Positions 23,136 through 35,532 of a stretch of 35,532 nucleotides of DNA are shown one piece after another. Location of the stretch: the IMG/VR virus record IMGVR_UViG_3300047281_000050, positions 1 to 35,532 of that record, one strand, 5' to 3'. This DNA is from a virus. Under the pieces are notes generated by a model. It did no database searches. It was not told the DNA's origin and saw only the letters and a program-made list of their open reading frames with translations. Both the position numbers and the translations under genes were made by a program. Every line of letters starts with the position of its first letter. Within the stretch, counting starts at the first letter, position 1.

Positions 23136-23702
23136 TTATCTGTAAAACATTACATATACCATTCTTCCTTCTTTCCAACCTGTGTTTGGATATTTACTAT
23201 GAAAATAATTAGAAGGATACATAAGCGCGCGATTCGGCCTATATCCCACTACAGAATGTAAATCCCAATTATCTAAATTATTAGCTTCCTCTAAAAGAAA
23301 TCTATCAGCCTCTTCATTAGAAACGTCTAAAGGCATTTCATAACCTACATCTTTATGTCTCCAAAAAGCAGTTCCGTGAAGCCCATGTTTTGTAGATGGA
23401 GATATATATAGTACTAGTGCTCTTTCAGGTCTAATATCGCCTACTTTTGAGTCTGAGTGTATTCTCCAATCGGTATCAAACTCTTCAGTTGCTACTCTAA
23501 AGAATCCTAATAAGCATTCTCGTTGTATGCCATCTATAGCAGATAATTTTTCAACAATGTGAGCGTCAAAAAGTTTATTGCTATACTGTACCCAAAACTT
23601 TTTATCTCCTACTTCAACTTCTTCAAATTTATTATGAAGTAAACTATGTAAAACTTCTCTATAAACGTGTTCCTTTAAAAAATCATCTACAATGTTTATC
23701 AT
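23136..23702 (-). CDS. 2OG-Fe(II) oxygenase-like protein, 188 aa
   Basis: The sequence carries the iron-binding pattern of 2-oxoglutarate/Fe(II) dioxygenases: HSD at residues 82-84 (His82, Asp84), a distal His168 (SNYFHSKYP) and Arg180 (EGRMVYVMFYR), the expected 2OG-binding arginine 12 residues later. The GTAFWRHK motif at 110-117 resembles the DUF6445-type phage oxygenases. The fold's strand order is preserved, with no signal peptide. It overlaps the preceding gene by ATGA and precedes the terS-position gene, so it belongs to the packaging operon. The substrate is unknown; phage members could hydroxylate a protein or a nucleic acid base. Confidence 0.65.
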   Translation of the reverse strand: MINIVDDFLKEHVYREVLHSLLHNKFEEVEVGDKKFWVQYSNKLFDAHIVEKLSAIDGIQRECLLGFFRVATEEFDTDWRIHSDSKVGDIRPERALVLYISPSTKHGLHGTAFWRHKDVGYEMPLDVSNEEADRFLLEEANNLDNWDLHSVVGYRPNRALMYPSNYFHSKYPNTGWKEGRMVYVMFYR

Positions 23703-24262
23703 AGCTTCATTGTTATTTGATGGTCATACATTCGATACAGTTTCTCTCCATCTACATCAAACTCGTATTCGCTATCAGGAGAAAAACAAATATAATCGCC
23801 CCGATTAACACCTTTACTTAGAAGGTATTTATTTGGATATACCATCTGCCCCATCAAAGGTTCTTCTTTTATAAATTTTTTTATGTAGTAATCTGTAGCA
23901 GAAATTGGTCTAACAAAGCAATACTTATCATAAGCATTCCAAGTAGAACCTTTTTTATACATAAAGAATTGGTCTGTTTCTATAAAGAATAAATCATCTT
24001 TAAAAAAACTTTTTCCGCTTTTTTGACGACCCCTCATATCATTGTAATACTTAAAAGCGTTATGATGCACAAGAAGAATATCTCCCGGCTCAATACGCCC
24101 CTTGTAACCTAATGGGGTCTCTATAACCTCTGCATATCTGTTTGAGAATTTATGGTCTTCTTCTGAAGTACTTACTATAAGTTCAATACCTCCAATATCT
24201 TTTGTATTGTTGTATCGTTTTCCGCTTACAGGTTTAGCTATGAAATAAAATGGAGACTTCAT
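23699..24262 (-). CDS. Possible double GroES-fold protein, 187 aa
   Basis: I see two successive segments with the strand and turn order of the chaperonin-10 barrel. The first (residues 5-105) has FIAKPVSGKRYNN, a glycine-containing loop, AEVIETPLGYKGRIEPGDIL and LVHHNAFKYY, then DDLFFIETDQFFMYKK. The second (115-187) has CFVRPIS, an exposed loop, VYPNKYLLSKGVNRGDYICF and a closing FDVDGEKLYRMYDHQITMKL. The GD-x-[IL] turn after a small-residue strand and the 'gekly.i....I' closing strand are GroES-like. The assignment rests on pattern, not identity, and other small beta barrels remain possible. It lies in the packaging operon, coupled by 1- and 4-base overlaps to its neighbours. Confidence 0.4.
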   Translation of the reverse strand: MKSPFYFIAKPVSGKRYNNTKDIGGIELIVSTSEEDHKFSNRYAEVIETPLGYKGRIEPGDILLVHHNAFKYYNDMRGRQKSGKSFFKDDLFFIETDQFFMYKKGSTWNAYDKYCFVRPISATDYYIKKFIKEEPLMGQMVYPNKYLLSKGVNRGDYICFSPDSEYEFDVDGEKLYRMYDHQITMKL

Positions 24263-33581: not shown

Positions 33582-34022
33582 ATGAAATCAAATACAGATG
33601 ATTACCTAAAATATTGGAGGGTAGTAAGACAGTTCATAAAAGTTAAATATGATTTAACTCAAGGAGACTTAGAGATGTTGTTATTTTTATACTCTGAAAA
33701 ATATTTCGGAAGAGATAAATTCGATGAGTTTGACGACCTACTTGGTTGGGATGTATATCGTTTTTTTAGACTCCAACAAGATGGTTGGATTGTAAAGTTT
33801 AGAAATCAAGTTGGTAAAAGAAAGGCTCTATACCAATTAACGATTAAATCTACTAGAATGATTCAATCAATCTATCGGAAACTAAGCGGAGAAGAAATCC
33901 CCGTTAGTAGTTCCAATAGTAAAATGTTCTTTAAGAACGTATCTTATACTGACAAAAGATACAAAGAGATGATTACTGAAATGAATAAAGCTATAAAACA
34001 ACAACAACATCCCTCTCCGTAA
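33582..34022 (+). CDS. Winged-helix-like protein, 146 aa; only rightward gene
   Basis: The N-terminal 90 residues resemble a MarR-type winged helix as found in many Bacteroidota phages: YWRVVRQFIKVKYDLTQGDL, then EMLLFLYSEKYFGRDKF, the recognition-helix-like LGWDVYRFFRLQQDGWIVKF and a wing-like GKRKALYQLTIKSTRM. The C-terminal part is basic and Ser-rich, and the last residues overlap the 3' end of groES on the other strand by 32 bases. It is preceded by an A-rich leader. It may act as a regulator of the divergent promoter or in replication. Convergent overlap with groES and the interlocked promoter make it the pivot of two opposite transcripts. The DNA target is unknown. Confidence 0.6.
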   Translation: MKSNTDDYLKYWRVVRQFIKVKYDLTQGDLEMLLFLYSEKYFGRDKFDEFDDLLGWDVYRFFRLQQDGWIVKFRNQVGKRKALYQLTIKSTRMIQSIYRKLSGEEIPVSSSNSKMFFKNVSYTDKRYKEMITEMNKAIKQQQHPSP

Positions 34023-34254
34023 TGATGGTGTATTGTTTATCATCAATTAACATTGTAAACCCATGCGCTTTATCGTAGTAGATGTCGTCATTTTTCTTGA
34101 TGTTATCAACATCTGTTCCTGATGCGATAACGATACCACGTTTATAGCGCATTTGGTTCACATCTTCTCCTGATAGAATCAATCCTGATTCTGTTTTCAA
34201 CTCTTCATCAATAGTCTTGATGATAATATATTTTCCTATAGGCTTTAATGACAT
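33991..34254 (-). CDS. groES: Co-chaperonin GroES, 87 aa
   Basis: The opening MSLKPIGKYIIIKTIDEELK corresponds to the first strands of GroES. It is followed by a mobile loop TESGLILSGEDVNQMRYKRG (residues 21-40) that carries the hydrophobic tripeptide LIL, the counterpart of the GroEL-binding IVL of E. coli GroES. Then come GIVIASGTDVDNIKKNDDIY and the closing strands QYTIITERDVVVVL. At 87 residues it is about 10 shorter than bacterial GroES because the roof-loop region (near residues 45-55) is reduced. It should cap the phage GroEL or the host one, as gp31 does for T4 capsid folding. It lies 8 bases after the Acb2-like gene in the groEL operon. Confidence 0.8.
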   Translation of the reverse strand: MSLKPIGKYIIIKTIDEELKTESGLILSGEDVNQMRYKRGIVIASGTDVDNIKKNDDIYYDKAHGFTMLIDDKQYTIITERDVVVVL

Positions 34255-34262
34255 AGTTTTTT

Positions 34263-34658
34263 TTATTTTCTAAAGGTTAGCAATTTTACCACATTCATCT
34301 GAGTGTTCAGAATCTCTCCGATAGTATGTTGAAACAAAGACTCTTTCAATTGGTCCCTGTAACCCGGTGCAATACCTTTCTCCAAATCTCCTTCGTAGTA
34401 TGGGTTCTCGTAATCTTGATTTACCAAATCTGCTAACTCTGCACAAAGCTCTTTTGCTTTTTGTACTTTTTCATTTCCTGATGGATTGAATGTTAATCCA
34501 ACAAGTTGTTCCCCGAATGTCAATGTTTCTTTTTTCATTTTTTCTTTTATTTTTACAATTATTTCTCTAACTCTTGCGGCTCTCTCGTAATCCTTTGCTA
34601 TTACATACCTTGTCTTTATTTTTTCTAAAGATTCCAATATCTCTATAAGGCTACTCAT
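34263..34658 (-). CDS. UVR-motif helix plus Acb2/Tad1-type hairpin-like domain, 131 aa
   Basis: Residues 1-40 (KIKTRYVIAKDYERAARVRE and onward) look like the helical UvrB/UvrC-type motif (dyE.AA.lRd). From residue 47, GEQLVGLTFNPSGNEKVQKA, AELADLVNQDYENP and the ending EILNTQMNVVKLLTFRK match, by my recollection, small phage proteins annotated as Acb2/Tad1 hairpin domains. In those the opening is F-x-P-S-G-x-x-x-V and the close is A-x-M-W-A-V-K-A-x-T. Acb2 and Tad1 sequester cyclic nucleotide or cyclic ADP-ribose signals of CBASS and Thoeris immunity. The start at 34658 forms ATGA with the preceding gene, favouring the long form; Met41 could give a shorter product. The assignment is from memory of motifs. 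Confidence 0.45.
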   Translation of the reverse strand: MSSLIEILESLEKIKTRYVIAKDYERAARVREIIVKIKEKMKKETLTFGEQLVGLTFNPSGNEKVQKAKELCAELADLVNQDYENPYYEGDLEKGIAPGYRDQLKESLFQHTIGEILNTQMNVVKLLTFRK

Positions 34659-34888
34659 AGCCCAAACCTTTTTATGTTTTCTATGAACTTTCTCTTGTCT
34701 CCATCTTTAGGATACAACGCCACGTCTATATATCCTGTGCCTCTTCTGTGATTTACAGCCTCAACCCTGAAGTCGATAAACATTGGATTCTCATCCAACA
34801 ATCCTTGGCACTCTTCCAAGTCTGCCATGCCGGATTGGTTTAACCCATATACCTCAATTGTTACAAAGTCAATTCCTCTTATTTTCAT
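34655..34888 (-). CDS. Conserved small phage protein, 77 aa
   Basis: The protein has strands KIRGIDFVTIEVYG and FIDFRVEAVNHRRGTGYIDV, with an acidic helix between them (MADLEECQGLLDENP) and a basic helical end (DKRKFIENIKRFGL), a beta-alpha-beta layout. No motif of a known enzyme is seen. It overlaps the membrane-protein gene by 20 bases and the next gene by ATGA, so it is co-translated with the chaperonin operon. The charged, strand-rich shape would suit binding of a protein or nucleic acid. Role unknown. Confidence 0.5.
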   Translation of the reverse strand: MKIRGIDFVTIEVYGLNQSGMADLEECQGLLDENPMFIDFRVEAVNHRRGTGYIDVALYPKDGDKRKFIENIKRFGL

Positions 34889-35081
34889 CTTTCCAATTTA
34901 GCCAAAATCCAACGCCTACAACTATATTCATTCCCATCGATGCCACTATCTCCATAAAGTCCTGATAGATATTTACCGTTAGGTGTACGTGTCCTACCAT
35001 CCAAAAAGGTATTGATAGGTTGCACGCCACCCATATAACAGTAAATCTTATAAACTCTTTAGTTCTCTTGAGCCTGCTCAT
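34869..35081 (-). CDS. Small membrane protein, 70 aa
   Basis: Two hydrophobic segments are visible (FIRFTVIWVACNLSIPFWMV, residues 11-30, and FMEIVASMGMNIVVGVGFWL, about 42-62), each able to cross a membrane. The connecting loop contains His and Thr, and both ends are basic (SRLKRTKEF; NWKDENKRN). It overlaps groEL by 23 bases and the next gene by 20. Such a short two-segment protein might be a holin-like, superinfection or host-takeover protein; nothing in the sequence decides. No signal peptide cleavage site is obvious. Confidence 0.5.
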   Translation of the reverse strand: MSRLKRTKEFIRFTVIWVACNLSIPFWMVGHVHLTVNIYQDFMEIVASMGMNIVVGVGFWLNWKDENKRN

Positions 35082-35532
35082 AACTACGAGCCATTGTTAT
35101 TGTAGTGTCAGTACTTAAAATAGTCACAGCTACACTCACGGCATTTTGTAATGCACTCCTCGTTACTTTCAATGGGTCAATTACTCCCATCTTAATCAAG
35201 TCTCCAAACTCTCCGGTTTTAAGGTTATACCCTTCTCCCACTACAAATGGTCCACTATACACATCCTCAACTTTCAATCCGGCATTTGCCAAAATTTGAA
35301 TTAAAGGTGCTTGAAGTGCTTGAACTACAATCTCAAGAGCAACCTCACGCTCTTTATTTTCGCTTAGAAATTCAGGAGAAATCTCAATATTCAACGCTTC
35401 TTCAAATAATGCTCTACCTGCACCGGGTAAAATACCTTCTTCAAGTGCAGAACGTACTGCACAAACAGCGTCATCTACCCTATCGTACAGCTCTTTTTGC
35501 TCCAAATCTGTCTGTCCACCTACGAAAATAAC
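35059..35532 (-). CDS. groEL: Phage chaperonin GroEL, C-terminal part (runs off right edge)
   Basis: The frame is open through the right edge (VIFVGGQTDLEQKELYDRVD and onward) and covers the last 157 residues. It shows the GroEL equatorial domain: DRVDDAVCAVRSALEEGILP with the catalytic-aspartate counterpart of E. coli Asp398, GYNLKTGEFGDLIKMGVIDP with the nucleotide-binding Asp495 counterpart, and KVTRSALQNAVSVA. The GGG loop is GAG here. The inter-ring contact region has Ile, Lys, Glu and Asp where E. coli has Arg452, Glu461, Ser463 and Val464. The C-terminus is short (ARSYEQAQEN) and has no GGM tail. It should fold phage proteins, probably the capsid, with the GroES encoded three genes downstream. 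Confidence 0.8.
   Translation of the reverse strand, partial: VIFVGGQTDLEQKELYDRVDDAVCAVRSALEEGILPGAGRALFEEALNIEISPEFLSENKEREVALEIVVQALQAPLIQILANAGLKVEDVYSGPFVVGEGYNLKTGEFGDLIKMGVIDPLKVTRSALQNAVSVAVTILSTDTTITMARSYEQAQEN

Follow-up and report, generated by a model that had tools for sequence, protein, structure and literature searches.

Engineered mutants and mitochondrial Hsp60 have long fed the debate over whether GroEL/GroES must have two rings, and the groEL gene that runs off the end of this phage contig raises the question of whether its product still stacks into the familiar double ring. The window, by which we mean the whole stretch analysed, is a linear virus record of 35,532 bases, and its last 474 bases (35059..35532, minus strand) hold the 3' part of a phage groEL encoding the C-terminal 157 residues; the reading frame is open up to the contig end, and the 5' part lies beyond it. 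The fragment was identified by Pfam Cpn60_TCP1 (PF00118, E = 2.4e-25, over the cut-off), by phrog_5725 (chaperonin groEL, E = 1.1e-36) and by 81% identity to the IMG/VR relative L002. An attempt to recover the missing 5' part with an exact 33-mer from the window gene gave no match among viral contigs.

Residues were numbered by alignment to E. coli MG1655 groL (Met = 1), which is gapless over residues 434–464, the next loop being two residues shorter than in E. coli. This alignment bears out the claim of an earlier note on this DNA that the protein is altered at all four positions of SR1, the mutant whose four mutations separate the E. coli rings (PMC2741606). Specifically, Ile stands at Arg452 (35299..35301), Lys at Glu461 (35272..35274), Glu at Ser463 (35266-35268) and Asp at Val464 (35263-35265), all on the minus strand and with their codons confirmed in the nucleotide sequence. 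Another ring-contact position, Glu434, is also Lys (35353..35355, minus). As the note had further stated, the counterparts of Asp398 (ATP hydrolysis; 35470..35472, minus) and Asp495 (nucleotide site; 35176..35178, minus) are kept, and the tail, SYEQAQEN, is without GGM. The missing GGM is weak evidence, as 7 of 30 GroELs of Bacteroidota do not pass a crude test for it either.

To place these residues in context, we compared the window with a family of 80 IMG/VR relatives (at least 80 exist; 191 stretches in all), 68–81% identical over the fragment and 37–40% identical overall to E. coli GroEL. Neither Arg452 (0/80) nor Glu461 (0/80) is kept in any of them. Position 452 is instead Gln in 37, Leu in 27, Ile in 8 and Val in 5, while position 461 is Lys in 73 (91%) and position 464 is Asp in 72 (90%), with Leu460 and Tyr466 conserved in about 100% of the family. 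Ser463 is kept in over half (Ser in 45, Glu in 17). Among relatives covering the respective sites, 50 of 72 have Glu and 3 have Lys at position 105, and 58 of 73 have an acidic residue (Glu or Asp) and just one has Ala at position 109; position 434 is variable. Judging from these alignments, three SR1 sites (452, 461 and 464) are changed family-wide, as a family signature and not as a quirk of this contig. Because the Arg452–Glu461 pair is lost and the A109–A109 site carries mostly like charges, the canonical contacts, as read from the sequences, would be unable to form as they do in E. coli, and the staggered interface of the canonical kind has very probably been lost.

Cellular GroELs present a different picture. 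Among 30 host-type Bacteroidota GroELs, Arg452 and Glu461 are each found in 29 and Lys105 in all 30, so the note's statement that Bacteroidota keep Arg, Glu, Ser and Val is sound for the first two residues but looser for Ser463 (21/30, with Ala in 9) and Val464 (19/30, with Ile in 11). Likewise, a gammaproteobacterial-type set (20 relatives of an Aliivibrio-labelled bin) has Arg452, Glu461 and Lys105 in 20/20. In the tree, the window and its family form one clade (SH-aLRT 100), and the nearest outgroups (L098–L103 and MW202828) are mixed. Since Arg452 is still present, together with Asp461, in two of these sister phages (L101 and L102), the loss of Arg452 and Glu461 in the family would most simply be derived.

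The same tree, in which branches are long and the placements of the longest are unsure, groups Vibrio phage GroELs with gammaproteobacteria and DAC22 with Bacteroidota, affinities that point to the uptake of GroEL by phages on more than one occasion. The DAC22-type viral GroELs (L177–L256, some contigs of which may be host DNA) keep most canonical contacts (Lys105 in 80/80, Arg452 in 73/80 and Val464 in 77/80), and we therefore rejected the notion that all phage GroELs lose the interface; phages in general need no single ring. Residue 461 in this type is Ser in 23 of the 80 and residue 463 is Glu in 23, the acid lying as if shifted by two positions. Elemovirus-type GroELs (L264–L277) have Lys or Arg461 in 10 of 13, with Arg or Lys452 kept and Lys105 mostly kept, which is possibly an independent E461K-like state. 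Nor are phage-encoded GroELs rare, as the earlier note had it: 207 phage records match GroEL, two IMG/VR scans returned 191 and 510 related stretches, and such genes were already reported by Nishimura et al. in 36 environmental genomes of a Bacteroidota podovirus group (PMC5332604).

The chaperonin is accompanied by its own co-chaperonin. A groES (87 aa; 33991..34254, minus; PF00166, E = 5e-14; phrog_3188) lies about 0.8 kb downstream of groEL on the same strand, beyond three short minus-strand ORFs (34263-34658, 34655-34888 and 34869-35081, together spanning 34263..35081) for which no Pfam family was found over the cut-off. Its mobile-loop tripeptide, by loop alignment, is Leu-Ile-Leu in place of Ile25-Val26-Leu27. 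GroES is encoded by all 36 related records tested, and the mobile loop is hydrophobic in 86 loci, with Leu at position 25 in 77 of 87. A convergent ORF (33582-34022, plus) overlaps the end of groES, and its positional counterpart in MW202828 carries a repressor annotation. Separately, a 187-aa protein (23699-24262, minus), encoded beside the genes for the terminase and the minor coat protein, aligns end to end with phrog_13932 (co-chaperonin GroES; E = 7e-23), although no Pfam family matched it; it is present, besides the true GroES, in 18 of 19 related records, the remaining one being also without the terminase, and might be a GroES-like protein with two barrels, encoded near the head genes.

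Terminase, portal and virion genes come after groES in the window. The terminase is 78% identical to that of the Manatee Spring podovirus MW202828 (a 60,850-bp circular genome) and about 45% to those of Flavobacterium elemoviruses, Cellulophaga phages gave additional matches, and the longest related records measure 60–65 kb; the window belongs to a podovirus-like phage of about 63 kb. A Bacteroidota host is likely, as inferred from the terminase kinship and from the labels of genome bins in which chaperonin relatives were found (Cytophagales, Bacteroidetes and Flavobacteriaceae, but also Aliivibrio and TMED88). The Aliivibrio-labelled bin contains several different phage-type GroELs (L099, L100 and L104), with 9 matches in one genome, and these are most likely phage contigs binned by mistake.

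Several lines of evidence indicate that the gene encodes a working chaperonin. Most of the 80 relatives are full length with intact reading frames, and the window fragment is under purifying selection (dN 0.13–0.19 versus dS 1.2–2.5; dN/dS 0.05–0.16). Asp52, Asp87 and Asp398 are invariant in all relatives that cover them, Asp398 also in the window. The full-length L002 matches PF00118 over the cut-off, and its AlphaFold model (pLDDT 76) has a three-domain chaperonin fold whose best matches are group I GroEL chains (E = 1e-40). Given the Cpn60 domain, the catalytic residues and the GroES partner, the window protein is a group I chaperonin. The staggered inter-ring contacts by which group I is also recognized (Arg452–Glu461, Lys105/Ala109 and Ser463/Val464) are replaced, at 452, 461, 463 and 464 in the window and also at 105 and 109 in the family, which counts against a standard double ring and not against group I kinship. 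Assignment to group II, with its built-in apical lid and no GroES, was rejected, as GroES is present and the best fold and sequence matches are to group I; a group II origin of the segment NAGLKPSDVY was likewise rejected, the likeness being merely local.

Loss of contact residues must be judged against the overall divergence of the family, in which 118 of 258 sites conserved in bacteria have changed; on that background, the loss of the four contact sites with strict conservation (105, 109, 452 and 461) is only mildly enriched (P = 0.04). Charge reversal is similarly weak as proof of design, because other conserved sites reverse as well (K226E, E238K and E304K). Variability provides the stronger test. 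With the ring-contact list taken from PMC2741606 and PMC5941174, the seven contact sites average 1.63 bits within the family, compared to 0.64 for equatorial sites (P = 0.005), an excess that is absent in bacteria themselves (P = 0.49), and their variability is also above that of equatorial sites matched for conservation in bacteria (P = 0.002; P = 0.003 for polar sites only); these P values are guides and optimistic ones, as the sequences share ancestry and exposure was not controlled structurally. Sites 105, 109, 434, 452 and 463 fall in the 84th–96th percentile of equatorial variability, while 461 and 464 are of no more than average conservation (64th percentile). The trend towards variable contact sites is shared by other phage GroELs.

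The raised variability of most contact sites favours, as far as sequences can tell, rings that are single or come apart easily. We consider it close to an even call, falling just short of one, that the protein acts either as a stable single ring or as two rings that separate easily, each seven-membered ring being competent alone. Contact residues lost with relaxed constraint at those sites are what a natural single ring would display, and finding both here is supportive, not sufficient. The earlier note's formula, a single ring or a rearranged interface, holds as a disjunction, since the contacts are replaced family-wide, including at 105 and 109, but neither of its alternatives is thereby singled out.

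How might such a ring work? In the ancestor of the clade the staggered interface would have been dismantled, with Arg452 turning neutral, Glu461 turning to Lys and Lys105 and Ala109 turning mostly acidic. Unfolded phage proteins would then be bound by the ring, which would be capped by the phage's GroES, hydrolyse ATP and let go with no need for a signal from a partner ring. The apical groove lies outside the window fragment, and changes to it were seen in the relatives (L002–L081), where Leu234 is replaced by Glu in 67 of 70, Val263 and Val264 by Ala and Tyr203 by Met or Leu, while Tyr199, Phe204 and Leu237 are kept; in the same groove Glu257 becomes Asn and Glu238 becomes Lys. In all covered members of the family Asp83 is Thr or Ser, with Lys327 mostly kept, two residues that form an inter-domain salt bridge in E. 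coli GroEL. Release of GroES is a problem for single rings that engineered systems solve by weaker GroES binding, which lets single-ring GroEL work in vivo (PMC5575113), and the altered groove (Leu234, Val263, Val264 and Tyr203) may likewise loosen GroES enough for a single-ring cycle. At somewhat less than even confidence, a widespread phage clade may have evolved a group I chaperonin that depends on GroES and works as a single ring or splits into single rings, its contacts lost and its client and GroES groove retuned; put otherwise, and just as tentatively, it could be a natural counterpart of SR1 combined with affinity-lowering suppressors. Oligomeric state, cycle, clients and the effect on GroES affinity are all features that we infer from sequence.

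The conserved Lys461, Asp464, Leu460 and Tyr466 speak against single rings, as they fit a contact that was retained and rebuilt. A double ring with new contacts, perhaps in register (one to one) with Lys461 facing the acidic 105 and 109 of the other ring, would resemble group II chaperonins, phage EL and, according to published work, the E. coli E461K mutant, and we regard it as a possible but doubtful solution. In its favour, Lys461 and Asp464 show good conservation alongside the mostly acidic 105 and 109, two acidic 109 residues, one from each ring, would clash if brought together as in the canonical A109–A109 contact (PMC2741606), the NAGLKPSDVY motif resembles the group II segment NAGLDPIDIL, and the phage EL interface is one-to-one (PMC7185714). 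However, a new fixed interface would not predict that 105, 109, 434, 452 and 463 rank so high in variability among equatorial sites, nor that 461 and 464 are of average conservation. Moreover, the lysine of E. coli E461K touches Glu434 (PMC2741606), a position occupied by Lys in the window and by various residues across the family, and the few sequences without Lys461 exhibit no clear compensation at 105 or 109.

It is less probable still, indeed unlikely, that two rings pair in the ordinary staggered way through other contacts, the SR1 sites having drifted as the family diverged. Chloroplast Cpn60s are generally regarded as double-ring chaperonins. Some of their subunits are without one side of the Arg452–Glu461 pair (Cpn60 beta has Asn461 and most Cpn60 alpha are neutral at 452; PMC4828840), and loss of this salt bridge is thus no proof of single rings. 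The low identity to E. coli GroEL, the many other conserved sites that changed and the ordinary GroEL chains topping the fold search all suit such drift, but both salt-bridge systems and the A109 contact have been replaced together, often by like charges, and the contact sites vary more than equally conserved background sites. Finally, that the window copy is a non-functional relic or an assembly artefact, a concern the earlier note had raised over the N-terminal part that the contig end cuts off, is highly improbable and was rejected for the family, given 80 relatives with the same residues, most of them full length and intact, the purifying selection and a GroES always alongside.

Among the closest known systems are Bacteroidota podoviruses (Cellulophaga phi38:1, Flavobacterium elemoviruses and MW202828), which are the same phage type by terminase and carry a GroEL with an adjacent or nearby GroES. 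The window clade combines Lys461 and Asp464 with a neutral 452, whereas Lys461 occurs in 9 of 13 elemoviruses, with 452 still Arg or Lys and 105 mostly Lys, and phi38:1 has Glu at both 452 and 461. We found no description of the inter-ring residues of the window family in the open-access literature. The jumbo-phage chaperonins EL, OBP and AR9 are likewise phage-encoded GroEL relatives and exist as single rings or split into them, independently of a co-chaperonin (PMC7185714, PMC5934643, PMC9598537). The earlier note's comparison with EL is apt in that EL splits into single rings with ATP, but EL is only 22% identical to GroEL and GroES-independent (PMC7185714); membership in this very distant type was rejected, as EL lies far away in the tree and the window family carries its own GroES. 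Since those single-ring phage chaperonins work without GroES, one partnered with GroES would be a distinct case.

Human mitochondrial Hsp60 offers another parallel, being a group I chaperonin that works with its co-chaperonin Hsp10 as a single ring, without both inter-ring salt bridges (PMC8292379); it is, however, cellular, has other substitutions and arose independently, and its single-ring state was measured while that of the phage family is predicted from sequence. With E. coli GroEL/GroES the family shares group I sequence and fold, Asp52, Asp87 and Asp398 and a GroES of its own. SR1 (R452E/E461A/S463A/V464A) is altered at the same four positions as the window GroEL but is engineered, whereas the window GroEL is natural, has Ile, Lys, Glu and Asp at these sites and ends without the GGM tail; its family is further changed at 105, 109 and 434 and is 37–40% identical to E. 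coli GroEL. As a common, naturally occurring phage family in which GroES and the ATPase residues are retained but both sets of ring contacts are replaced, it would add many ready-made test proteins to those engineered and mitochondrial examples.
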